A DNA stretch of 64,000 nt from Spartobacteria bacterium (GTDB lineage: Bacteria > Verrucomicrobiota > Verrucomicrobiia > Chthoniobacterales > UBA6821): positions 1-64,000 of the forward strand of contig CANKWU010000008.1 of the NCBI GenBank assembly GCA_947487385.1, read 5' to 3'. Position 1 is the stretch's first letter, and every line of letters starts with the position of its first letter. Under the pieces are notes generated by a model. That model was not told the DNA's origin. It ran no database searches and saw only the letters and a program-made list of their open reading frames with translations. Below are positions 26,960 through 45,368 of the stretch, piece by piece. Both the position numbers and the translations under genes were made by a program.

Positions 26960-28252
26960 ATGAGGACGATCGGCATTGGACTAGCCGGCTTCGGCACTGT
27001 AGGCGCTGGGGTCTATGAGAATCTGGAGCGCCACCGCGAACTGATTGCGGAACGTTCCGGATATGCATTTTCCGTGCGTCGGATCGTCGTGCGCGATCTG
27101 AAGAAACCTCGTGATGTCCCGGCCCCCGCCTCTCTCTTCTCCAGCCGGTGGCAGGACCTGCTAGAGGATCCCGAAATCAAGATCGTCGTCGAACTGATCG
27201 GCGGGACAACGGAGGCCTTCGACCTGACGATGGCGGCGATCCGCTCGGGACGCATCGTCGTCACGGGAAACAAGGCTCTTTTGGCTGAGCGGGGAGCGGA
27301 AATTTTTGGCCTGGCGAGCGAGTGCAAAGTTCCAGTTTTCTTCGAGGCGGCAGTGGCCGGCGGCATTCCGATCATCCAGTCTCTCCGCGATGCCTTCGTC
27401 GGCAACCGTATCGAGTCAGTACACGGAATCCTCAACGGCACAAGCAACTATATCCTGACCCGGATGCAAGAGGCAGGGCTCGACTACCCCGATGCCCTCG
27501 CGGAGGCGGTCGCGCTAGGTTATGCCGAGGCCGACCCCACGCTTGATATCAATGGTTGGGACGCCGGACACAAGGCGATCATCCTGGCCGCCCTCGCCTA
27601 CGGATTCTGGGTCGATCCTGCCACGGTCCGTGTCGAGGGGATAGACCGCGTGAGTGCGGCGGACATTCATTTCGCGAAGAGCCTCGGCTACTGCATCAAG
27701 CTCCTGGGATCGATTCGCGAGAAGGAGGGCAACGTCGAGGTGGGGGTCGCCCCGACTCTCATCCCTCTCGGGAATGTCCTAGCGTCGGTGACCGGGGTCT
27801 TCAATGCGGTGGCCGTCCGTGGTGATCTCGTCGGCGACAGTCTTTTCTACGGACGCGGGGCTGGACGCGGCCCCACTTCCACCTCGGTCATCGGGGATCT
27901 TGTGGAAGCGGCCCATGTGCTGGATGCCCCGCGCCAGACCTACGGCTTTTCCTCCCACGGTCTCTATGGCAGCAGTCGTCCCGCTGCAGAAATCATCGGC
28001 TCCTATTACCTGCGCCTCTCCGTGGATGACAAGCCAGGCGTTCTAGCCCTCATTGCCGGAGTTCTCGGCGGGGCAGGTATTGGCATTTCTTCGGTAGTCC
28101 AGCCTGAGTCGATAGCCGGGGTTGAAACCCCTCTTGTGCTGATGATCCACGAAGCCGCCTACGGAGCCATGTGTGCCGCCCTTGCGAAGATCGCCGCCCT
28201 CAACTGCGTGAAGGGAGAGCCCGTTCTCTTCAATGTGGAAACCTTTTCCTGA
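26960..28252 (+). CDS. hom: homoserine dehydrogenase
   Basis: Hom reduces aspartate semialdehyde to homoserine, the branch point to threonine and methionine. The 430-residue monofunctional enzyme has the N-terminal nucleotide site GLAGFGTVGAGV, VVTGNKALL, the catalytic region with EAAVAGGIPII and NGTSNYILTRM, the ALGYAEADPTLDINGWDAGHKA signature, and a C-terminal ACT domain (about 345-430). The start is the ATG at 26960. It is the first gene of hom-thrC-lysC with short gaps. No attenuator or riboswitch was seen in the short leader. Confidence 0.95.
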   Translation: MRTIGIGLAGFGTVGAGVYENLERHRELIAERSGYAFSVRRIVVRDLKKPRDVPAPASLFSSRWQDLLEDPEIKIVVELIGGTTEAFDLTMAAIRSGRIVVTGNKALLAERGAEIFGLASECKVPVFFEAAVAGGIPIIQSLRDAFVGNRIESVHGILNGTSNYILTRMQEAGLDYPDALAEAVALGYAEADPTLDINGWDAGHKAIILAALAYGFWVDPATVRVEGIDRVSAADIHFAKSLGYCIKLLGSIREKEGNVEVGVAPTLIPLGNVLASVTGVFNAVAVRGDLVGDSLFYGRGAGRGPTSTSVIGDLVEAAHVLDAPRQTYGFSSHGLYGSSRPAAEIIGSYYLRLSVDDKPGVLALIAGVLGGAGIGISSVVQPESIAGVETPLVLMIHEAAYGAMCAALAKIAALNCVKGEPVLFNVETFS

Positions 28253-28270
28253 TTTCCTGATCTGAATTTG

Positions 28271-29374
28271 ATGAAAGAGACCTTCAATGATTGTGGCGTG
28301 ATTGAGCGCTACCGGGAATTCCTTCCCGTCACCGATGCCACGCCCGTCATCTCCCTGAGCGAAGGCTCCACGCCACTGATCCATTCGCCCAAGCTGAGTG
28401 CGATCACCGGCGGTGAGGTCTATGTCAAATACGAGGGGCTGAATCCAACCGGCTCCTTCAAGGACCGAGGCATGACCATGGCGATCTCCAAGGCTGCCGA
28501 GGAGGGGGCCCATACCGTCCTCTGCGCTTCCACGGGAAATACCTCTGCCGCAGCTGCAGCCTATGCTGCGCGCGCCGGAATGAAGTGCGCCGTCCTTCTT
28601 CCTGCGGGACGTATCGCAGGAGGCAAGATGGTCCAGGCCTATATCTATGGAGCGACTGTCGTTGCCATCCGGGGAAACTTTGACGACGCCCTGCGACTCG
28701 TGCGCGAGTTGGGAGAGACCGGTGACTTTGCAATCGTCAACTCGATCAATCCCTACCGTATCGAAGGACAAAAGACCGCCGCCTTCGAGATCATCGAGGA
28801 GTTGGGGAATGCCCCCGATATCCATATCCTCCCCGTTGGCAATGCCGGGAATATCACGGCCTACTGGAAGGGCTACAAGGAGTTCAAGGATCTGGGCCGC
28901 AGCCACAAGCTTCCAAGGATGCTCGGCGTTCAGGCTGCCGGATCAGCGCCCCTCTATCATGGTGCCCCAATGGCCAATCCCGAGACCGTGGCCACAGCCA
29001 TCCGGATCGGACGCCCCGCCAGTTGGGACGGAGCCATCAATGCCGTCTCAGAGTCTGGCGGCTGCTTCGAGATCGTCGAGGACTCGGAGATCCTGGCAGC
29101 CCAGAAGTGGCTTGCTTCCAACGAGGGAATCTTTGTGGAGCCTGCCAGCGCCGCCCCCGTGGCCGCTCTCTTCAAATGCTTCAACCGCAGCGGAAAAACC
29201 ACGCAGTGCGACTCCTGTCCCTTCCGCCAGGTCCAGCCTGGATCCAAGGTGGTACTCACGGTCACCGGTCACGGACTTAAGGATCCCGATACGGCCAAGC
29301 ATGCGGTGACTGCACCCATCGAAACCGAGGCCACGGCAGCAGCTGTCCGTGAGGCCCTGGCTAAGATCGGCTGA
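28271..29374 (+). CDS. thrC: threonine synthase
   Basis: ThrC converts O-phosphohomoserine to threonine with PLP. The 367-residue protein has the PLP lysine in [10 protein letters not shown], the glycine-rich [17 protein letters not shown] loop and [20 protein letters not shown] segment near the C-terminus (about residue 315) could be a small metal site. The start is the ATG at 28271, with a TTG just before it. It lies between hom and lysC, which makes it the likely main threonine synthase. A second homologue at 37378-38634 sits under a SAM riboswitch and so probably has another job. No homoserine kinase gene was found in the window. Confidence 0.93.
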
Positions 29375-29416: not shown

Positions 29417-30634
29417 ATGCCCCTCATCGTTCAGAAATACGGCGGCACTTCTGTCGGTAATCCCGAGCGCATCAAGAATGTCGCGCGTCGTTTACTGGAG
29501 GCTCAGCGCGAGGGGAATTCCGTCGTCGCGGTCGTTTCCGCGATGTCTGGTGTTACCGATTCCTTGATCAAGCTCGCCCGCGAGGTCTCCTCGAAGCCCA
29601 CGGAACGAGAGATGGATGTTCTGCTCTCCACGGGTGAGCAAACTACAATGTCTCTTACTGCCATGGCGATCCAGAGTCTTGGCGGCAAGGCTGTCTCCCT
29701 GACGGGTGCCCAGGCTGGCATTGTCACCAACGGCGTCCATACCAAGGCCAAGATTAGTAATGTCACCCCAGACCAGATCAAAAAGCACCTCGATGAGGGG
29801 GCGATTGTGATCGTGGCTGGCTTCCAGGGAGAGACCAGCGAGGGAGACATCACAACGCTCGGTCGTGGCGGCTCCGACCTCACGGCCATTGCGCTGGCTT
29901 CTGCCCTTGATGCCGATGCCTGCCAGATCTTCACCGATGTTGACGGCGTCTACACGTGCGATCCCCGCATTGTGCCGACCGCCACAAAAATCGAGGCCAT
30001 CTCCTACGACGAGATGCTCGAGATGGCCAGCAGCGGCTCCAAGGTCATGCAGTCCCGCTCGGTGGAATTCGCCAAGAAATTCGGCGTGACCTTTGAGGTC
30101 CGCAGTAGCTTCAACAACAACCCAGGAACAACCGTGAAAGAAGAATCCGCAGGAATGGAACAGGTCGCCGTGCGCGGCGTCAGCGTCGAGCGCAATCAGG
30201 CCAAGGTCACCGTCAGCCAAGTCCCCGACAAGCCGGGATGCGCGGCCCGCCTCTTCACAGCACTCGCAGATGCTCATGTCATGATCGACGTGATTGTTCA
30301 GAACGTCTCCGCCGCAGGTTCCACCGACATCTCCTTCACCATGAACCGTGACGAACTCGAGAAGATCGGAGATCTTCTCGACCGCGTTGCCACCGAGATC
30401 GGGGCGGGCAAGGTCAGCAAGCAGGATGGGATTGCCAAGCTCAGCGTCGTTGGCATCGGAATGCGCACCCATTCCGGCGTTGCGGCAAAGCTCTTTGAAG
30501 CCCTTGCCAAGGGTGGCATTAACATTCAGATGATCTCCACCTCGGAGATCAAGATCGCCGTCATCCTCGACGAGGAGAAGATCTCCGATGCAGCTAAGCT
30601 GGCCCATACCGCCTTCGGCTTGGACGCAGCATAA
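29417..30634 (+). CDS. lysC: aspartate kinase
   Basis: LysC phosphorylates aspartate as the entry to lysine, threonine and methionine synthesis. The 405-residue protein has the N-terminal kinase motif VQKYGGTSVG, the GRGGSDLTAIALA loop and FTDVDGVYTCDPR, followed by two ACT domains (about 265-405, QVPDKPGCAARLF and GIGMRTHSGVAAKLF) that usually give feedback inhibition by lysine or threonine. It is a monofunctional enzyme of normal length. It is the last gene of hom-thrC-lysC and is followed by an inverted-repeat element and a bidirectional terminator. Confidence 0.96.
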   Translation: MPLIVQKYGGTSVGNPERIKNVARRLLEAQREGNSVVAVVSAMSGVTDSLIKLAREVSSKPTEREMDVLLSTGEQTTMSLTAMAIQSLGGKAVSLTGAQAGIVTNGVHTKAKISNVTPDQIKKHLDEGAIVIVAGFQGETSEGDITTLGRGGSDLTAIALASALDADACQIFTDVDGVYTCDPRIVPTATKIEAISYDEMLEMASSGSKVMQSRSVEFAKKFGVTFEVRSSFNNNPGTTVKEESAGMEQVAVRGVSVERNQAKVTVSQVPDKPGCAARLFTALADAHVMIDVIVQNVSAAGSTDISFTMNRDELEKIGDLLDRVATEIGAGKVSKQDGIAKLSVVGIGMRTHSGVAAKLFEALAKGGINIQMISTSEIKIAVILDEEKISDAAKLAHTAFGLDAA

Positions 30635-37058: not shown

Positions 37059-37331
37059 CTAGCCTCCAGCGATGGCGGGGACGATGGAGATGACATCGGC
37101 CTCGTTTATCGGAGTCTCCTTTTCCTGAAGGAAGCGCACATCTTCGTCGTTCACGAAGATGTTCACGAAGCGACGGATGGTTCCATTCTCATCGACTATG
37201 CGTTCACTAAGGCCGGGAAAGGAAGCATTGAGCTCGTCGAGAACTGCCCCAAGTGTCGCTCCAGAGGAAATGACCTCCTCCTGATTGTTGGTAAGTTTAC
37301 GTAGTGGGGTGGGGATGCGGACGGTGGGCAT
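37059..37331 (-). CDS. MoaD/ThiS-like sulfur-carrier protein
   Basis: This is a 90-residue beta-grasp protein of the MoaD/ThiS/ubiquitin-like type: MPTVRIPTPLRKLTNNQEEV, then GATLGAVLDELNASFPGL, then NIFVNDEDVRFLQEKETPI and the C-terminal VISIVPAIAGG. The terminal Gly-Gly is what such carriers need for activation as a thiocarboxylate. No moaE, thiG or E1-like partner is adjacent. It lies 46 bases after the ThrC-like gene and 45 before the NIL gene. By analogy with CysO-CysM and with the ThiS-like carriers of homocysteine synthesis, it may hand sulfide to the ThrC-like enzyme. A true ThiS gene is at 63417-63617. Confidence 0.88.
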   Translation of the reverse strand: MPTVRIPTPLRKLTNNQEEVISSGATLGAVLDELNASFPGLSERIVDENGTIRRFVNIFVNDEDVRFLQEKETPINEADVISIVPAIAGG

Positions 37332-37377: not shown

Positions 37378-38634
37378 TTAGCTTTTTGCCCCGACCTCAT
37401 CGGCGACGAGAGCCTCGAACTCACGGAGGCTCGGTCCGATCACGCGAGGCTCACCGACTTTGCCAACAATGGCTTCCTGAGTCTTGAGTCCATGACCAGT
37501 GATGCAGAGGACTGCGCTCTCGTCCTTGGGGATCTTTCCCGAGGCAATGAGCTTCCTCGCACAGGCAACGGTGACGCCACCTGCGGTCTCGGCGAAGATC
37601 CCAGTGGTCTCGGCAAGAAGTTTGATACCCTCGACGATCTCCTCATCGGTGCAATCTTCACAGCTTCCACCTGTCTCCTTCATGCTCCGGATCGCATAAT
37701 ACCCATCCGCAGGAGTACCGATGGCGAGTGACTTGGCGATGGTGTCGGGGTTCTGGACCGGCTTGACTATTTCAGTTCCTGCCTTGAAGGCCGTACTGAT
37801 GGGTGAGCAACCCGATGCCTGGGCTCCGTGTATCGAGAAATCGCTCTTAGGAACGATGTCGAGGTCGATGAACTCCTTGTAAGCCTTGTGGAGCTTGGTC
37901 AGGAGTGATCCGGAGGCCATGCAGACCACGGTGTGGCGCGGTAGCTTCCAGCCGAGTTGTTCGGCAATCTCAAAGCCCATGGTCTTGGAACCCTCCGCGT
38001 AGTAGGGCCGGAGATTCACGTTCACGAAGCCCCATCCGTACTTGCCTGCGATCTCGGAGCAGAGACGGTTCACCTGATCATAGGGCCCCTTGATCCCGAT
38101 GACATTGGTTCCATAGACTAGCGAACCGAGCACCTTGCCCTGCTCAAGGTTTGAAGGGATCAGCACGTAGCTCTTGAGTCCGGCATTGGCGGCGTTGGCG
38201 GCGACCGAGTTCGCCAGATTGCCGGTGGAGGCGCAGGCAACGACCTTGAAGCCGAGCTCTCGGGCGCGGCTGAGCGCCACGGAGACCACGCGGTCCTTGA
38301 AGGAAAGAGTTGGATAATTGACGGAGTCGTTCTTGATCCAGAGTTCGCGGATGCCGAGGGCCTTGGCCAGTCGGTCGGCCTTCACTAGGGGGGTAAAGCC
38401 CACCTGGGTGCCAACAGTCGGTTCTCCATCGATCGGGAGCAGCTCCCGATAGCGCCACATCGTCTGGGGTCGGGACTCAATAAGCTTCCGGGTCAGCACG
38501 GCGCGGATCGCCTCGTAGTCATAGGCGGCCTCCAGCGGGCCGAAGTCGAACTCGCAGATGTGGATTGCCTCTTTCTCGTAGAGGCGTCCGCATTCGCGGC
38601 ATTTCAGATTACTAAACCAAGGTTTTGTGGTCAT
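37378..38634 (-). CDS. threonine-synthase-like PLP enzyme under SAM-I riboswitch
   Basis: This is a 418-residue fold-type II PLP protein of the ThrC family. An N-terminal Cys cluster (CRECGRLYEKEAIHIC, residues 13-28) resembles a zinc ribbon. The PLP lysine is in YPTLSFKDRV, and the phosphate loop is ASTGNLANSVAANAANAG. It is only distantly similar to the thrC product at 28271. The SAM-I riboswitch in its leader and the carrier and NIL genes downstream suggest that it makes a sulfur amino acid, for example homocysteine from O-phosphohomoserine, rather than threonine. This is an inference, and plain threonine synthase activity cannot be excluded. The ATG at 38634 has GAGGAG just upstream. Confidence 0.88.
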   Translation of the reverse strand: MTTKPWFSNLKCRECGRLYEKEAIHICEFDFGPLEAAYDYEAIRAVLTRKLIESRPQTMWRYRELLPIDGEPTVGTQVGFTPLVKADRLAKALGIRELWIKNDSVNYPTLSFKDRVVSVALSRARELGFKVVACASTGNLANSVAANAANAGLKSYVLIPSNLEQGKVLGSLVYGTNVIGIKGPYDQVNRLCSEIAGKYGWGFVNVNLRPYYAEGSKTMGFEIAEQLGWKLPRHTVVCMASGSLLTKLHKAYKEFIDLDIVPKSDFSIHGAQASGCSPISTAFKAGTEIVKPVQNPDTIAKSLAIGTPADGYYAIRSMKETGGSCEDCTDEEIVEGIKLLAETTGIFAETAGGVTVACARKLIASGKIPKDESAVLCITGHGLKTQEAIVGKVGEPRVIGPSLREFEALVADEVGAKS

Positions 38635-38636
38635 GG

Positions 38637-38676
38637 GATCTCCTCGTTGTTGCTCATCAAGAGTGGCGAAGAGACC
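38637..38676 (-). promoter_or_regulatory. ribosome-site-sequestering hairpin of the SAM riboswitch
   Basis: On the minus strand GGTCTCTTCG (38676-38667) can pair with CGAGGAGATC (38646-38637) over ten positions, two of them G-U, which hides the GAGGAG ribosome-binding site. The 20-base loop contains CACTCTTGATGAG (38665-38653), which is complementary, with one mismatch (paired as G-U), to the 5' strand of the aptamer (CTTATCAAGAGTG). Pairing of the loop with the aptamer would compete with both SAM binding and this hairpin, which fits translational control. Confidence 0.6.
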
Positions 38677-38710
38677 TGGTGCCTCAATCCCTGCGGATCA
38701 TCGGCTCTGC

Positions 38711-38831
38711 CAAGTATCTCATCTTTTCCCCGATTGCTCGGAGCTGGATTTGGCACCTGGGCCTACGAAAAAAATCCGTAGCGGTTGCCGTGACATCAGC
38801 GGGCCAGTCCCTCCGTCACTCTTGATAAGAT
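38711..38831 (-). ncRNA. SAM-I riboswitch (S-box) aptamer
   Basis: The minus strand matches the SAM-I core in order: CTTATCAAGAG at the 5' end, then GGAGGGACTGGCCC, then a TGATGTCACGGCAACC stretch, a GGTGCCAAATCC segment and GATGAGATA at the 3' end. The P1 helix pairs CTTATC (38829-38824) with GATGAG (38723-38718). A P3-like stem CTACGG/CCGTAG lies between the core parts. Such riboswitches repress methionine and cysteine synthesis or transport genes when S-adenosylmethionine is plentiful. Here it leads the ThrC-like, MoaD-like and NIL genes. Confidence 0.93.
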
Positions 38832-38840
38832 TGAAATCGA

Positions 38841-38869
38841 ATCATTGAATTTAAGATTCTACTCGTCAA
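38841..38869 (-). promoter_or_regulatory. promoter of the riboswitch transcript
   Basis: On the minus strand TTGACG and AATGAT are separated by 17 bases. The predicted start of transcription falls about ten bases upstream of the riboswitch P1 helix, where it should be. Confidence 0.5.
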
Positions 38870-38937: not shown

Positions 38938-39011
38938 GCAGCCATAGCTCAATTGGATAGAGCATCTGACTACGGATCAGAAGGTTTGAGGTTCGACTCC
39001 TCATGGCTGCA
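38938..39011 (+). tRNA. tRNA-Arg (anticodon ACG)
   Basis: The sequence folds as a standard cloverleaf of 74 bases. The acceptor stem is GCAGCCA with TGGCTGC. The D arm is GCTC and GAGC, the anticodon stem TCTGA and TCAGA with loop CTACGGA, and the T arm TGAGG and CCTCA with loop TTCGACT. The discriminator base is A and CCA is not encoded. The ACG anticodon reads CGN codons after deamination to inosine. Confidence 0.96.
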
Positions 39012-39022
39012 CTCTCTTTTAA

Positions 39023-39937
39023 TCAGGGTCTCTGAAATGCACCCTTGATCCACCCAGAGAATCGGACGCGTTCCACAAGCGCCATGTGAGGGACCGTCAG
39101 AGCGGCCAGTCCTACAAAAACAATCTGAATCAGGCGTTCATCGAGGGACTTTCCTTTAAGGAACCACCAGGCAAGCGCCGAGACCATGGCAACGCCGATC
39201 ATCGGCAGGAGAGCAGAAAGAGCCAGGAGGCGTCTCGAAAGAGATCCCGAGTAGTCGATGGTCCTGAGGATATGGCGAGCGCTGTGCATGCCGCAAAAAA
39301 AGAGGGTGAATGCGATGAGCGGAGGCGCTGCAACACTCAGCAAAACGACGGAGGCTATCTCAATGGCTCCCAGCCAATCACTCCACGCAAGCAGGATCAC
39401 TCCGATTACAACGCACGGTAGCCAGAGCCAGGCAATCAGCTTGATCCATGGCATGAGCAGAAGGGCAGGCTCATTACCCACAAGAAGCCCAAAAAGTTGC
39501 GCCATCTCCTCCGAGTGAAAGAGTGCGGGCAATAGGAGCACGCTTCCCCCATAGAGGATTCGAGTGGCGTGGGGGGTTCCCTCCTCAGGATCCCCCGAGA
39601 AATGGGCCGCTGAGATTAAAAGAAACAAAATCAAAAAACCCATCGGCGCCCACCACCAAACCGCCACAACAACTGCCGCTAGAAGAAGATAGATCATGGT
39701 GAAAATCATCCAGTCTGTTGGCTTCCGAAGATCGTAAAGTCTGTAAGCAAAGATCGTGTCGAATGCCCCATGCGGGACCCCCAGAAGAAGGATCAAGGTC
39801 GCAAGGATAATGAGTCCTGATTGCCCGTTGAAATCCCCCTTCTGGGACCCAACCAGTGCGAAAAAAGCCGCCGCTCCAAGCGCGCAGAGGCTGAATAAAA
39901 ATCCTTGAATGCGGAACGGGCTCATCGGTTTCATCAT
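39023..39937 (-). CDS. blh: Blh/Brp-type beta-carotene 15,15'-dioxygenase
   Basis: Blh cleaves beta-carotene to two retinal molecules in the membrane. The 304-residue protein has about eight hydrophobic segments and the family histidines in GVPHGAFDTIF, SAAHFSGDPEE, FCGMHSARHIL and TVPHMALVER, which are thought to bind iron. It is the last gene of the crt run, and its start overlaps the crtY stop by four bases. Together with crtEIBY and the rhodopsin it completes a retinal pathway. The start is the ATG at 39937, with alternative ATGs one and four codons in. The tRNA-Arg gene lies just beyond its stop. Confidence 0.93.
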   Translation of the reverse strand: MMKPMSPFRIQGFLFSLCALGAAAFFALVGSQKGDFNGQSGLIILATLILLLGVPHGAFDTIFAYRLYDLRKPTDWMIFTMIYLLLAAVVVAVWWWAPMGFLILFLLISAAHFSGDPEEGTPHATRILYGGSVLLLPALFHSEEMAQLFGLLVGNEPALLLMPWIKLIAWLWLPCVVIGVILLAWSDWLGAIEIASVVLLSVAAPPLIAFTLFFCGMHSARHILRTIDYSGSLSRRLLALSALLPMIGVAMVSALAWWFLKGKSLDERLIQIVFVGLAALTVPHMALVERVRFSGWIKGAFQRP

Positions 39938-41127
39938 TCCCCCTTTTCTTTTTTTTCTCTTCTTGATTTATGGCTGTAGGGTAACCTCATGGTCTTGTCC
40001 AATTCGCTCAGAAAAGGCGCCGGAGGAAGTGATGCCATGATTGTGAGGCAATCAGCAAGACTCGCGCGATCACTCATGAAGCGGGCCACGCGAGTCGGGT
40101 CCACCTTGGAAAAGAGTGAAAAGAAAATATCGGGAGCCAGTTCGGGATGGGCGTTAAGCACATGCAGAAACAGAGCGTCCATGGTGCGGATGATGAGAGG
40201 ATCTTGCGGATGGGATATTGGGGGACGACCCTTGGCCAACACCATGGCGCACTCTTGCGACCACCTCCAGATACGCTGAAAGGCGTATCCACTGCTGGGT
40301 CTGGCCCCTCCAGCCATCAGCCCCGCACGGACGTAGCTGGGATCAGTCTGTCGATTTTCAGGAGGTATCCCCATGGGGAGGATTCCATGCTCTTTTCTGC
40401 CGCTTGAGTAACGGCGCCCTTGAAGTCGTTGTTTGACGAGAACGCCAAACGACTCCTCCAAATCCTCTGCTTTCAAAGGCTCCGATCCGAAAACCGTAGC
40501 CTCCACAAGGGCTTTCCTCTTGGAGAAAGGGAGAACATATAGAAAGAGGATCCTTTCGGATGAACTTCCAGAAAAATCCATCAGCTCCACGCAACCCGGA
40601 TCAAAGATCTCTTCTTCAGTTGTGATCTCTTCCCCAAGGAACGACTGCCAAAGAAGAGGATCAAAATCACCAAAATGCGGGACCTTGGGACGAGTATCCA
40701 CGATCCGTGGGGCCGTGGAGACTCCCATCGGAGTTTCCACATGCCAGAGCCCACCTCTCTTCAAAACCTCACCCGAGACGATGCTTTCCATCTTCAAATT
40801 GATCCGAGAGGACTGGTCAATCACTCCTACTGCAGCCTGATAGAAGTCTTTGGAGGCGACCATGAGGTAGGGATTTTCTTTGCATCGGCGGGTGATGCGG
40901 CCCTTGGCCGTGATGATTGAAAAAGATTCCCAACGGTGGGTCGCAAGCTTTTCTGAATTGGACCCAAACCCGCCCCAAAAACACCAGGTGCGGTCATTGG
41001 TATATTCCTGCCTGCCCTCGAGAATAAGAGTCCGGGGGCTGGCCTCTCCATAGTTGGCAAGATTCATACCGAGGCTCAATCCGGCACAGCCACCCCCCAA
41101 GATGATGAGATCGGATTGATTGCTCAT
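39934..41127 (-). CDS. crtY: lycopene beta-cyclase, CrtY type
   Basis: CrtY closes both ends of lycopene to beta-carotene. The 397-residue flavoprotein has the N-terminal dinucleotide fold DLIILGGGCAGLSLG, the family NDRTWCFWG segment, a middle AXXPXF-like region (PRIVDTRP) and a C-terminal part with MAGGARPSSGYAFQRI, which is typical of bacterial CrtY. Its start overlaps the crtB stop and its stop overlaps the blh start by four bases each, so the genes are translationally coupled. The start is the ATG at 41127. Confidence 0.92.
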   Translation of the reverse strand: MSNQSDLIILGGGCAGLSLGMNLANYGEASPRTLILEGRQEYTNDRTWCFWGGFGSNSEKLATHRWESFSIITAKGRITRRCKENPYLMVASKDFYQAAVGVIDQSSRINLKMESIVSGEVLKRGGLWHVETPMGVSTAPRIVDTRPKVPHFGDFDPLLWQSFLGEEITTEEEIFDPGCVELMDFSGSSSERILFLYVLPFSKRKALVEATVFGSEPLKAEDLEESFGVLVKQRLQGRRYSSGRKEHGILPMGIPPENRQTDPSYVRAGLMAGGARPSSGYAFQRIWRWSQECAMVLAKGRPPISHPQDPLIIRTMDALFLHVLNAHPELAPDIFFSLFSKVDPTRVARFMSDRASLADCLTIMASLPPAPFLSELDKTMRLPYSHKSRREKKEKGE

Positions 41128-42056
41128 GGAGCGATCTCAAGGCCTGCAAGTGCGATGTGGAGTTCCGAGCGGTGAGCGCAGGTAGCGGACCAAAACGATC
41201 TCTCTCTCGATCCCTTTCTCGATCCCTTAAGCGCGAGGCTCGCGAGAGCTGACACTGTGATAATCGCCTTTTGATGGGAAGAGACCATAGCACGTCGGGA
41301 CCAGCAATCTCCCTTGCGTGAAATAAGATCGAGACCAATGCCACGATAGACCCTGGAGGCGATCAAGATAGCCCCGCGTGCACGCAAGGGCAGGTAGGAG
41401 AGTCCCTCTTCGCCGCTTCGGTAGTAGTCTTCGGAAAGTCGCAAGAGCTCGAGGACGCCCGAGGCAATCTTAGCGCACACGGCAGAGCTAGGGTTGATCA
41501 ACTCTTGGGAAGAAAGATCTCCAACAAGGGTCCAAGGAAGGTATCGGCGACCCATTGCGCCATCCTCAAGGACATCGCGACAGATGTTGGTCAATTGCAT
41601 GGCAATCCCAAGGTCGACGGCATGCGGGTAGGCTGCTGGTGAGCTGACATCAAGAACACGGCACATCATGAGACCCACAGTGCCGGCCACGCGGTAGCAG
41701 TAGCGAATGAGTTCATCCACATCACCGATCCGAACCTCCTCCAGATCCGAAGCGATTCCATTGATGAGTTCAAGAATCGGCTCTTTCGAAATACCACACT
41801 CTCGGGCTAGTGCTAGGCCGTCGCTGAGGGAGGCATCAGCAGATTCACCACTTAGGACATCTTCCCGAGCCGCTTCGATTTTTGAGCGCGCCTCATGGGG
41901 AGAGGAGGACTCATCGGCAAGATCGTCCAAATAGCGACAAAATGCATAAAGCCTTGTTGCTCTCTCCGCATGCCTGCTCCCCAAAAAGTGTCGTGCCCAA
42001 TAAAAGCTCCGCCCCTTACTGGAGAGCACCTCGTTGGCAGAGGGTTCTAAGCTCAT
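41124..42056 (-). CDS. crtB: phytoene synthase
   Basis: CrtB joins two geranylgeranyl diphosphates to phytoene. The 310-residue protein has the two Asp-rich sites of the family: YAFCRYLDDLADE and the QLTNICRDVLEDG segment with RRYLP after it. It also has the YCYRVAGTVGLMM helix. The ATG at 42056 is preferred because it lies seven bases after the crtI stop, and the longer frame overlaps crtI with no family sequence. The C-terminal 35 residues are variable (GSRKGSRERS). Confidence 0.94.
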   Translation of the reverse strand: MSLEPSANEVLSSKGRSFYWARHFLGSRHAERATRLYAFCRYLDDLADESSSPHEARSKIEAAREDVLSGESADASLSDGLALARECGISKEPILELINGIASDLEEVRIGDVDELIRYCYRVAGTVGLMMCRVLDVSSPAAYPHAVDLGIAMQLTNICRDVLEDGAMGRRYLPWTLVGDLSSQELINPSSAVCAKIASGVLELLRLSEDYYRSGEEGLSYLPLRARGAILIASRVYRGIGLDLISRKGDCWSRRAMVSSHQKAIITVSALASLALKGSRKGSRERSFWSATCAHRSELHIALAGLEIAP

Positions 42057-42063
42057 GCCGGCC

Positions 42064-43548
42064 TCATGCCGGGTTAAAGGCTTCGGCACGCGGCAGAAGG
42101 GCATCCACCACCTTTGCCGAACAGAGAACCCCGGGCAATCCAGCGCCAGGATGAGTGCCTGCTCCGGTAAGGAAGAGATTCCTGATCCCCTCACCTTTAT
42201 TATGAAAGCGAAACCAAGCAGACTGACGAAAAATAGGGGCGATGGAAAAACCTGCCCCATGGGTACTCAGGTACTCATCCCTAAAATCCTCCGGAGTCTT
42301 GAAAAAATCTGCCCTGATCGTGGAGGAAAGTTCCGGAAGAATCGTCTCCTCCAAGGCCTTCACGATCCGATCCCGAAGTCTTGGTCCCTGAATGCTCCAA
42401 TCAATACCGGATTGCAAATTGGGCACCGGGCAAAGGACATAAAAGCTATCGCACCCCGGTGGCGCAAAGCTTGGATCCGTGGCTGTCGGACGGTGAAGGT
42501 AGAGCGAAAAGTCATCCGCCAGGATTTTTCGGTCGAAGATATCTTTGAGTAACTCCTGATACCTTGGGCCAAGCCAGATTGTGTGATGGGCGACCTCCGG
42601 GTAGAGGCGCGTCGTTCCAAAATAGAGTACAAAGAGCCCCATCGAGTATTTTGCCCCGGCTAGCTTGAGTCGTGAGGAGAGCGCCTGTTTCTTGGAGCTG
42701 ATCATCTTACCGTAGAGGTGAGCGGGGTCGGTGTTGGTGATGACGAGGTCTGCTTTGACTATCTCCCCACCCTCCAAGAGCGCCCCTGTCGCCTTCCCAT
42801 CCTCCACGACAATCCCCTCGATCGTTGTGCCCAACCGTGTCGAGATCTGATGTCTCTCCATGAGACTCCCGAGTGCCGAGGTTATCGCCGCAGTGCCACC
42901 CATCGCAAAATGGACGCCGTGGACCCTCTCCAGATAATGGATCAGGGAATAAATACTCGTGGTGTTGAAGGGGTTACCACCAACAAGGAGCGGCTGAATC
43001 GAGAAGGCCTGCCGCAGCTTGGGACTGGAAAGGTAACGGCAGACCATTTGCCAGACGGTTTCATAGTTACGCAGGCGAAGCAGTTTAGGAACCTGCCGTA
43101 TCATGGTTAAGACACGGTGAAAAGATACCGCAGAAAGCTCCTCAAACCCGACTTTGTAAATTCGCTTGGAATGCTCCACGAGGCGCAAATATCCCTCCCG
43201 GTCCTTGGGTTCGATGCGCCCTATTTCTTCCAGAGTCTCCTCGAGCGTCCCACCGTAATTGAAGGCGGTGCCGTCGGGGTATCTGAACCGGTACCACGGT
43301 TTCAGAGGCACGAGTTTCACATGGTCATGGAAGTTTTCCCCAAAGAGTGCAAAAAGCTCCTCAAAAAGAAACGGAGCGGTGATGACCGTGGGACCGGCAT
43401 CGTGACGAAACCCCTCCTTCTCATAAACCTGCGCACGACCTCCCAGCCTAGGGGATCGATCAATCAGCGTGACCTGATATCCTTTTGCCCGGAGCCTAAG
43501 CGCAGACGCCATGCCTCCATAACCGGCTCCGATAACGAGAGCGTGCAT
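42064..43548 (-). CDS. crtI: phytoene desaturase
   Basis: CrtI introduces double bonds into phytoene to give lycopene, using FAD. The 494-residue protein has the N-terminal FAD site ALVIGAGYGGMASALRLRAK, the DAGPTVITAPF segment, and the C-terminal carotenoid desaturase signature NLFLTGAGTHPGAGLPGVL. The ATG at 43548 gives MHALVIGAG, and an upstream ATG adds 20 residues without similarity and overlaps crtE. It lies 13 bases after crtE. The four-step desaturation to lycopene is the usual outcome and fits crtY downstream. Confidence 0.95.
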   Translation of the reverse strand: MHALVIGAGYGGMASALRLRAKGYQVTLIDRSPRLGGRAQVYEKEGFRHDAGPTVITAPFLFEELFALFGENFHDHVKLVPLKPWYRFRYPDGTAFNYGGTLEETLEEIGRIEPKDREGYLRLVEHSKRIYKVGFEELSAVSFHRVLTMIRQVPKLLRLRNYETVWQMVCRYLSSPKLRQAFSIQPLLVGGNPFNTTSIYSLIHYLERVHGVHFAMGGTAAITSALGSLMERHQISTRLGTTIEGIVVEDGKATGALLEGGEIVKADLVITNTDPAHLYGKMISSKKQALSSRLKLAGAKYSMGLFVLYFGTTRLYPEVAHHTIWLGPRYQELLKDIFDRKILADDFSLYLHRPTATDPSFAPPGCDSFYVLCPVPNLQSGIDWSIQGPRLRDRIVKALEETILPELSSTIRADFFKTPEDFRDEYLSTHGAGFSIAPIFRQSAWFRFHNKGEGIRNLFLTGAGTHPGAGLPGVLCSAKVVDALLPRAEAFNPA

Positions 43549-43561
43549 GAATGGATGATAC

Positions 43562-44479
43562 TCAGTGCATCCCCTCGAGGCGATGCGAGAGTTCCTGGGC
43601 AAGCTCACGAAGCAGTACTCCAGAGCCGTTAGGAAGCGATCCAGCGAGTGAGACCGCCTTGGCCAAGTGCTCGAGCGCGTGACGGCGCGCCTTCTCGGAC
43701 GCCTCGTGGATCTGGCAGCGGCTTGCCTCGGAAATCACTAGGAGCGCATTGACGGAAAGGGTCCCGCGATCCTGCTCCACATCCTCCATATCATCGGCGA
43801 TCTGGTATCCGATGGCAAAGTGCTCCGCCGCACGCCTCGCATCCTCCGACCACATCCCTTTGGAGGAACCCTGAAGGGTAAGCTCCAGCGGAAGGCTCAA
43901 AAGCGCGCCTGACTTGGCTGAGGCAATGGCGTCATAGGTGGCCATGTCCTTCTCTTCATCTCCGATCGGGACAAGCCGCGCGCACTGACCTCCAATCACG
44001 CCGGCAATACGGGAGTGAACCAAGGATAGCAATTCGGGAAGGAGGAGGTCGTTGCTGAATCGCGCAAGGGCTGCATAAGCGGCCGAGAGAAGCAAATCCC
44101 CGGAACACAGGGCGACATGGAAGCCATAGGCTGCGTGGACGGTTTCCACTCCACGACGGAATTGCTGGCGATCCTCCAGATCATCATGAACAAGGGAAGC
44201 ATTGTGGATGAGCTCCACGCAGGAGGCAATGGCTACCGAATCCTCCGGGGGAAGCCCCAGGGCATTCCCCGCAGAGAGTGCAAGCCTAGCACGGATACGC
44301 CGACCTCCAGAGGAGAGGTGATAGAGAGCAGCACGAGTGGAGTCTGAATGCCCCTCGATCAATCCTGCCGATCCCGCCAGCGATGCGTGGACTATTTCCA
44401 TCATTCGCTCCTCCACCACGCCGAGCAAGGACTCACCAGGGAGTCCGGCTCCGACTCTTATCTTGGGAATCGTGGACAT
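43562..44479 (-). CDS. crtE: geranylgeranyl diphosphate synthase
   Basis: CrtE makes the C20 precursor for carotenoids. The 305-residue polyprenyl synthase has the first Asp-rich motif in HDDLEDRQQFRRG (four-residue-spaced DDxxD) and the second in QIADDMEDVEQD. The CELIHNASLVHDD segment is typical. It is the first gene after the rhodopsin, separated by 97 bases that hold a strong terminator, so it may need its own promoter or read-through. It is distinct from the ispA product at 255-1184. The start is the ATG at 44479. Confidence 0.93.
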   Translation of the reverse strand: MSTIPKIRVGAGLPGESLLGVVEERMMEIVHASLAGSAGLIEGHSDSTRAALYHLSSGGRRIRARLALSAGNALGLPPEDSVAIASCVELIHNASLVHDDLEDRQQFRRGVETVHAAYGFHVALCSGDLLLSAAYAALARFSNDLLLPELLSLVHSRIAGVIGGQCARLVPIGDEEKDMATYDAIASAKSGALLSLPLELTLQGSSKGMWSEDARRAAEHFAIGYQIADDMEDVEQDRGTLSVNALLVISEASRCQIHEASEKARRHALEHLAKAVSLAGSLPNGSGVLLRELAQELSHRLEGMH

Positions 44480-44533
44480 AATGGTAGGCCTAGGGGGTAG
44501 TGCCCGAATACTGACCTTACTGTACAGAGAAAA

Positions 44534-44562
44534 TCCGTGCGCCGAATAAACCGGCGCACGGA
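44534..44562 (-). terminator. strong terminator between rhodopsin and crtE
   Basis: A perfect 11-base-pair GC-rich stem (TCCGTGCGCCG and CGGCGCACGGA) with a seven-base loop lies 15 bases after the rhodopsin stop and is followed on the minus strand by TTTTCTCT. It should end much of the rhodopsin transcript before crtE. Confidence 0.88.
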
Positions 44563-44576
44563 GAAACCCCTAAACG

Positions 44577-45368
44577 TTACTTCGCGTGGGAGTCTGTCTC
44601 GGTGACAGCAGCAGCCCAGATGATGACACCGAAGGCGATTTTATTGAGCACATCGGCCAAATTATAAACAATGTTGAGGCCCTTCATGCTCTCCTCATGG
44701 TTCATTCCAGTAAGGTAACCGACGAAATAACCGATGGGATAGATCGCCCAACCGAAGGTCACAATCAGACGCATGAGGTTGAATGCCGTCTTGACAGCAG
44801 GAGGTGACTGATGAGCGTTGATGCGGCTGGCCTCGCCGAAGAAAATCTCAAAAAGGATGAATCCCCAACCGAGCATTCCCACGATGAAGGCAGGGAGTAC
44901 GGGGACATAACCGGCCTCGCCCACATATCCACCGATCAGCATGACAAGGGTCCCGATCAGCAAGCGCCAGAAAACGCCTGCGGGAACCTTCGTGATGGCC
45001 GAAAGGATTAAGAAGAACTCCACCATGAGGAGTGGCACGGTGATGAGCCAATCGATGTAGCGATAAACGGTCGGTGTGTCGTGGGTGGTTACCCAGACTT
45101 CACGCATGTAAAAGTAGTGAACGGCGGCAACCAGCGTCACGAGCCCGGAGACAGTGAGAGAAGTTTTCCACTTCCCAGAAACCCGCTGGGTTTCAAGGAA
45201 GAAAAACGCGGTGGAGGCAACAAGAGCCATAGAAATCAGCCAGAAAGAAATTCCGACAAAATCATTTGGCTCAAGGACAACTCCTGCGGAGGCTTGCGCT
45301 CTGGCAGGGATGAGAAGAGTCGCAAATGCGACTAGCGGTAGTTTAGAGAACAGGGGACGCATCTTCAT
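44577..45368 (-). CDS. proteorhodopsin, predicted green-absorbing proton pump
   Basis: This 263-residue seven-helix protein has an N-terminal signal peptide (cleavage near ARAQA). The helix C motif is D-T-E, Asp106, Thr110 and Glu117 in DWLITVPLLMVE, which marks an outward proton pump. The spectral-tuning residue is Leu114, typical of green-absorbing forms. His84 is the partner of the Asp counterion, and Lys243 in NLADVLNKIAFG binds retinal. Phe161 is at the site where Gly opens a window for carotenoid antennas, so none is expected. Retinal would come from the crtE-crtI-crtB-crtY-blh genes downstream. No clear ribosome-binding site precedes the ATG. Confidence 0.97.
   Translation of the reverse strand: MKMRPLFSKLPLVAFATLLIPARAQASAGVVLEPNDFVGISFWLISMALVASTAFFFLETQRVSGKWKTSLTVSGLVTLVAAVHYFYMREVWVTTHDTPTVYRYIDWLITVPLLMVEFFLILSAITKVPAGVFWRLLIGTLVMLIGGYVGEAGYVPVLPAFIVGMLGWGFILFEIFFGEASRINAHQSPPAVKTAFNLMRLIVTFGWAIYPIGYFVGYLTGMNHEESMKGLNIVYNLADVLNKIAFGVIIWAAAVTETDSHAK

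Follow-up and report, generated by a model that had tools for sequence, protein, structure and literature searches.

The window, the whole stretch of 64,000 nucleotides that was analysed, contains a SAM-I riboswitch in front of a gene annotated as threonine synthase. How does this riboswitch act on the gene, and what is a SAM sensor doing there? The genome (2.05 Mb, 94.5% complete) belongs to the order Chthoniobacterales of the Verrucomicrobiota, and the closest named records of the gene, which is called thrC-like below, are from freshwater 'Spartobacteria'. We consider it likely that the riboswitch shuts off translation of an operon of thrC-like, moaD-like and NIL-domain genes when SAM is plentiful.

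The SAM-I aptamer and its promoter

The aptamer (38716-38831, minus strand) was recognised by the covariance model of the SAM-I (S-box) family, RF00162, with 80.3 bits (gathering score 44.4). The match was full length (model positions 1-108) and confirmed the assignment made in the initial annotation of this DNA. Judged by its sequence, this is an ordinary SAM-I aptamer, with SAM as the presumed ligand, assigned by family. A genome search showed a single copy of SAM-I.

A sigma-70-like promoter, TTGACG-N17-AATGAT, is present at 38841-38869 (minus strand), with a predicted transcript start at about 38834, just 5' of P1. By eye, the TTGAC box and its 17-nt spacing are preserved 5' of the aptamer in the genus. 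The ATG start codon (38634-38632, minus strand) lies 81 nt past P1, and the ribosome site (RBS) is not within the 3' side of P1.

Two mutually exclusive folds of the leader

It had been proposed that the ribosome site GAGGAG can be closed in a ten-pair hairpin, and all ten pairs were found. The anti-SD strand GGTCTCTTCG (38676-38667, minus strand) and the 3' strand CGAGGAGATC (38646-38637, minus strand), which contains the SD sequence GAGGAG at 38645-38640, form an uninterrupted helix of ten pairs, including two G-U, with an energy of -14.0 kcal/mol. The fold in which the aptamer was forced includes this hairpin. Its stability was equalled by 4 of 200 shuffles, and a run of at least ten pairs over the SD was present in 1.1% of the shuffled leaders; because of this chance rate, the SD hairpin carries little weight by itself.

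The unconstrained fold of the leader (z -3.8) was not the aptamer, but a helix of about 25 pairs between CTTATCAAGAGTGACGGAGGGACTGG and CCAGGTCTCTTCGCCACTCTTGATGAG. The first of these (38804-38829, minus strand) comprises the 5' strands of P1, J1/2, P2 and P2b, the aptamer half taken up into the helix in the absence of SAM; the second (38653-38679, minus strand) is complementary to this 5' half and is referred to as the antisequestor. Within the helix, CTTATCAAGAGTG (38829-38817) and CACTCTTGATGAG (38665-38653) form 13 pairs, including the single G-U that had been noticed before, and the extension to about 25 pairs is made by CGGAGGGACTGG (38815-38804) with CCAGGTCTCTTCG (38679-38667). A 13-pair run with the aptamer occurred in 0.13% of the shuffled leaders, and the full duplex of aptamer and leader (-38.4 kcal/mol) was matched by none of 200 shuffles (z -5.6).

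The initial annotation had named the loop of the hairpin as the alternative partner of the aptamer. The loop does pair with the aptamer, but it is only part of the partner, as the helix of about 25 pairs also includes GGTCTCTTCG. Since the antisequestor helix thus consumes the anti-SD strand itself, the exclusivity of the two folds is direct. Folding showed that the antisequestor and the aptamer are mutually exclusive, in line with the two exclusive states first proposed.

The energies of the two states, which take no account of pseudoknot, kink-turn or ligand, were -86.4 kcal/mol for the SAM-free fold and -75.2 kcal/mol with the aptamer helices forced. With the SAM-free fold 11 kcal/mol better in the absence of tertiary and ligand terms, either switching must be kinetic or the binding of SAM must be strong; in this model the gap suggests kinetic control. 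When growing transcripts were folded, P1 formed at nt 115-120 and lasted to nt 165, and the antisequestor was dominant from nt 170. As P1 lasts until the antisequestor takes over, SAM would have about 50 nt of transcription to decide.

The unpaired fraction of the RBS in this leader was 0.45 in the SAM state and 0.73 in the free fold. All members of the genus that were inspected had a more open RBS region in the SAM-free fold, in agreement with the OFF direction first proposed. Over 86 leaders the difference was a small shift (0.50 in the SAM state, 0.55 in the free fold, p=0.03), with several members reversed.

Conservation across the Chthoniobacterales

SAM-I was present in 87 of the 213 genomes of the order, and 88 oriented SAM-I leaders from the Chthoniobacterales made up the comparative set. 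Nearly all of these contain an element 5' of the start codon (CACTCTTG, CRCTCTCG or CACTCTGG) that matches J1/2 of their own aptamer (ATCAAGAG, ATCGAGAG or ATCCAGAG); the first form, CACTCTTG, is the core of the antisequestor in the window and is conserved across the order. In most families the duplex of aptamer and leader was better than most or all of 200 shuffles. By the same comparison, families f4 and f9 had no clear antisequestor. Aptamers paired better with their own leader (-26.9 kcal/mol) than with the leaders of other families (-23.2 kcal/mol).

Covariation was assessed on leaders aligned on [AG]CTC[TC]; 20 of 85 leaders lacked this anchor and were excluded. The anchor fixes pairs 10-14 beforehand, so the other pairs alone count. 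In 58 of 65 leaders the free J1/2 nucleotide and its partner form a Watson-Crick pair; 28 were expected from an overall shuffle and 49 from a shuffle within families. Among 57 leaders this pair was A-U in 24, G-C in 23 and C-G in 3. The RF00162 consensus structure leaves this J1/2 nucleotide unpaired, so the aptamer fold does not explain its covariation. For the helix of 16 pairs (57 distinct rows), 80.4% of the cells were paired, against 38-51% for slid versions, and cells changed on both sides numbered 51 in the 57 leaders versus 21 after shuffling.

The shuffles for J1/2 and for the 16-pair helix ignore relatedness, and their p-values are optimistic. On a tree of the ThrC-like protein the changes were few and partly clade-wide, among them a swap from G-C to C-G between neighbouring f6 clades; a strict sign test on independent pairs of this tree had too few pairs for significance. 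With few independent events and relatedness ignored, the shuffle numbers are not to be taken as probabilities, and since the sign test is powerless, the support comes from the sliding control, the within-family shuffle and the duplexes with own versus foreign leaders. The antisequestor is strongly backed, at the level of sequence, by conservation and covariation across the order.

Covariation in relatives, which had been named as a check, was thus found for the antisequestor across the order, but not for the ten-pair hairpin. In ten leaders of the genus the hairpin had no compensatory changes, the anti-SD strand showing no covariation, and 77.8% of its cells were paired against a shuffled mean of 77.5%. 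Within the genus GAGGAG was found in this genome only, the nearest relatives having CGACGAG. The ten-pair hairpin was rejected as a conserved core because of the lack of compensatory change in the ten genus leaders and because the SD is not conserved. Other members of the genus have CUUGAU/AUCAAG or GAUCGG/CCGAUC hairpins, or a start buried in UGGGA/UCCCA. Going by these leader sequences, relatives have preserved the antisequestor and rebuilt the sequestor in other forms. In the window the SD core was found for 7 of the 42 long ORFs (starts not curated), and with SD use this sparse the structure of the start region may matter more than the SD.

In family f5 (L003, L005, L017, L033, L037, L039, L040, L044 and L166) a GGTGGG sequence adjoins the antisequestor. 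Its partner directly before the start codon varies (CCCGCC, CCTACC, CCCATC or TCCTGCC), which makes this, by eye, a second candidate covarying helix. Family f16 (L171-L174 and L176), which is Methylacidiphilum-like and lies outside the order, has the same arrangement of SAM-I and thrC-like gene with a shorter element of the CCTCG type.

Probable translational control and its alternatives

The leader in the window contains no intrinsic terminator-like site, as had been noted for T-run terminators, and such sites were found in nearly none of the 88 leaders of the order. As there is no T-run terminator, the leader is best read as an OFF switch of translation. Transcription would begin at the 5' edge of P1, and the aptamer would be complete by about 119 nt. 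P1 is predicted to be the best fold until about nt 165, and SAM bound within that interval would lock the aptamer. The downstream element would then be free, with the SD and the start region in a local hairpin, and loading of the ribosome would be blocked. When SAM is absent, CCAGGTCTCTTCGCCACTCTTGATGAG would from about nt 170 capture the 5' strands of P1, J1/2, P2 and P2b in about 25 pairs; this would destroy the binding site and use up the anti-SD strand, leaving the SD free. From the folds and the family assignment we infer that the action is translational and not at the level of the transcript, that SAM is bound and that the timing is co-transcriptional.

Control could instead be exerted mainly at the transcript level: the SAM-bound leader, being untranslated, would be terminated by Rho or attacked by RNase, and blocking of the ribosome would play a minor part or none. 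Messages that are not translated are often accessible to Rho. In other lineages terminators follow the same aptamer: they are clear in L170 (G111) and L190 (G334), and a stem followed by a T-run was seen by eye in L043 (G197), L175 (G330) and L178 (G501). Such terminators in related SAM-I leaders indicate repeated changes of platform type within the phylum. A weak transcriptional effect was also reported for the SAM-I riboswitch of Xanthomonas (PMC7270179). However, with intrinsic terminators absent here and nearly absent from the 88 leaders, and with both the antisequestor and the hairpin ending at the RBS, we regard control at the transcript level as unlikely.

In an ON switch, SAM would make the RBS accessible and increase threonine synthase, the equivalent in RNA of the plant threonine synthase that SAM activates. 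This is suggested by the annotation of the gene and by family f5, where the SD-like GGTGGG belongs to the stretch that is base-paired to the aptamer in the SAM-free structure. This GGTGGG pairs, however, also with CCYRCC just 5' of the start in the SAM state, and in the genus it is the free fold that opens the RBS. Moreover, a canonical cluster of hom (26960-28252), thrC (28268-29374) and lysC (29417-30634), all on the plus strand, is present in the same window, which means that the gene under SAM-I control is a paralogue and not the threonine synthase of that cluster. An ON switch is therefore very improbable. That the complementarity is incidental (for example a duplicated P1 strand), without switching past the aptamer, is hardly credible in view of the conserved and covarying pairing in most of the order's families, even though GATGAG of the element repeats the 3' strand of P1 and the hairpin alone is near chance (1.1%).

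Comparison with known SAM-I platforms

Translational OFF control, our preferred reading, shares with the S-box riboswitches of the Firmicutes type (RF00162) the aptamer, the ligand (by family), the OFF logic and the use of P1 for switching. In the classical S-box the antiterminator is built with the 3' strand of P1, whereas the alternative partner here takes the 5' strand of P1-J1/2-P2, and there is no terminator. Translational SAM-I control had initially been called less common in well-studied Firmicutes; outside them, riboswitches in general are most often predicted to control translation (PMC2258182). As such control is expected there, the mechanism alone is not surprising.

The SAM-I riboswitch of the Xanthomonas campestris met operon is likewise a translational OFF switch of a Gram-negative bacterium with the SD in a hairpin in the presence of SAM (PMC7270179). 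There, the SD is closed even without SAM and is opened by uncharged initiator tRNA, and the operon is a classical met operon (PMC7270179); in our folding model, by contrast, the antisequestor would free the SD. SAM-I riboswitches in which the 3' side of P1 contains the RBS (PMC2258182) have translation attenuation by the aptamer in common with this leader, but with the start codon so far past P1 a separate sequestor is needed here.

What sets this system apart is that a conserved antisequestor captures the 5' half of the aptamer and that the sequestor turns over, along with the operon that is regulated. In the literature searched, which mostly excluded subscription papers and is thus weak evidence of novelty, no paper joined Verrucomicrobia, a SAM riboswitch and threonine synthase, or Methylacidiphilum and a SAM riboswitch. 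A single riboswitch lineage in which covariation preserves the aptamer pairing while the closure of the ribosome site is repeatedly rebuilt offers a test case for the evolution of expression platforms.

The regulated operon

The regulated operon outweighs the mechanism in interest, as it combines a SAM sensor with a thrC paralogue and a sulfur carrier in genomes where no known homocysteine synthase was found. The first gene (37378-38634, minus strand) encodes a thrC-like PLP enzyme of fold type II (TIGR00260, 274.6 bits), a proposed homocysteine synthase, whose nearest solved structures are threonine synthases. It is 40% identical to the canonical thrC product about 8 kb away. It is followed by genes for a MoaD/ThiS-like sulfur carrier with a C-terminal Gly-Gly (37059-37331, minus strand) and for a NIL-domain protein of 92 aa (PF09383; 36771-37049, minus strand). 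The MoaD-like gene was adjacent (3') to the thrC-like gene in 74 of 80 loci and all 74 carriers end in GG; a homologue of the NIL protein was present at 49 of the 80, mostly just 3' of the moaD gene.

MetB, MetC, MetY and MetZ had no strong match in the genome (the best for PF01053, 4.2e-6, was partial and under the cut-off) and none strong in the genus, and the genome search found neither MetX nor DUF39 (HcyBio, PF01837). Two genes of the homocysteine S-methyltransferase family are present in the genome, and an E1-rhodanese gene lies at a contig edge. Among 58 relatives SAM-I was confined to genomes with the thrC-like orthologue (32 of 37, versus 0 of 21), and a strong PF01053 gene was rarer in genomes with the paralogue (8 of 37 versus 13 of 21, p=0.004, relatedness ignored). 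Two reduced genomes of 0.9 Mb (G028 and G038) have the thrC-like orthologue and no SAM-I match.

A GG-ending, ubiquitin-like carrier beside a PLP enzyme is also found in the protein-thiocarboxylate methionine synthesis of Wolinella and in the CysM/CysO/Mec+ synthesis of cysteine. The operon described here shares this arrangement, together with an E1-rhodanese gene elsewhere in the genome, but its PLP enzyme is ThrC-like and not MetY or CysM, and no JAMM protease gene was found: the sole Prok-JAB match in the genome (94.5% complete, with the E1-rhodanese gene at a contig edge) was RadC, and a Mec+/JAMM partner was dropped from consideration for this reason. With the homocysteine pathway of DUF39, NIL-ferredoxin and COG2122 (PMC5764234) the operon has a NIL-domain protein in common; DUF39 is, however, missing from the genome search results and the 92-aa protein matched no ferredoxin domain.

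In other classes of Verrucomicrobiota, SAM-I precedes genes that we take, by recognition of their sequences, to be metY-like or metX-like; in family f16, which is Methylacidiphilum-like, the gene that follows it is presumably the same thrC paralogue, named in the same way. With the same sensor on metY or metX in sister classes, the thrC paralogue becomes a candidate enzyme for an unassigned methionine route. On the simplest reading the operon would make homocysteine, probably from O-phosphohomoserine. In full, we propose a homocysteine synthase of threonine-synthase fold that exchanges the phosphate of O-phosphohomoserine for sulfur, with a MoaD-like thiocarboxylate (charged by the E1-rhodanese) and the NIL protein, in place of MetX, MetY or MetB; the riboswitch with its 5'-strand antisequestor would regulate this route by feedback in Chthoniobacterales and Methylacidiphilales. 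We judge the chances of this whole scheme to be about even. According to PMC5764234, at least one route to homocysteine had yet to be discovered in 2018, and if the proposal is true, a related enzyme might explain some organisms whose homocysteine route is missing.

Neighbouring genes

Just 5' of the riboswitch promoter lies a divergent tRNA gene (38938-39011, plus strand; anticodon ACG by eye), which is retained in several members of the genus. Beyond it, at 39023-45368 (minus strand), a bacteriorhodopsin-like gene (44577-45368, PF01036) adjoins genes of an apparent carotenoid pathway, recognised by eye as those for a prenyl synthase, a desaturase, a phytoene synthase, a cyclase and a Brp/Blh-like membrane protein.
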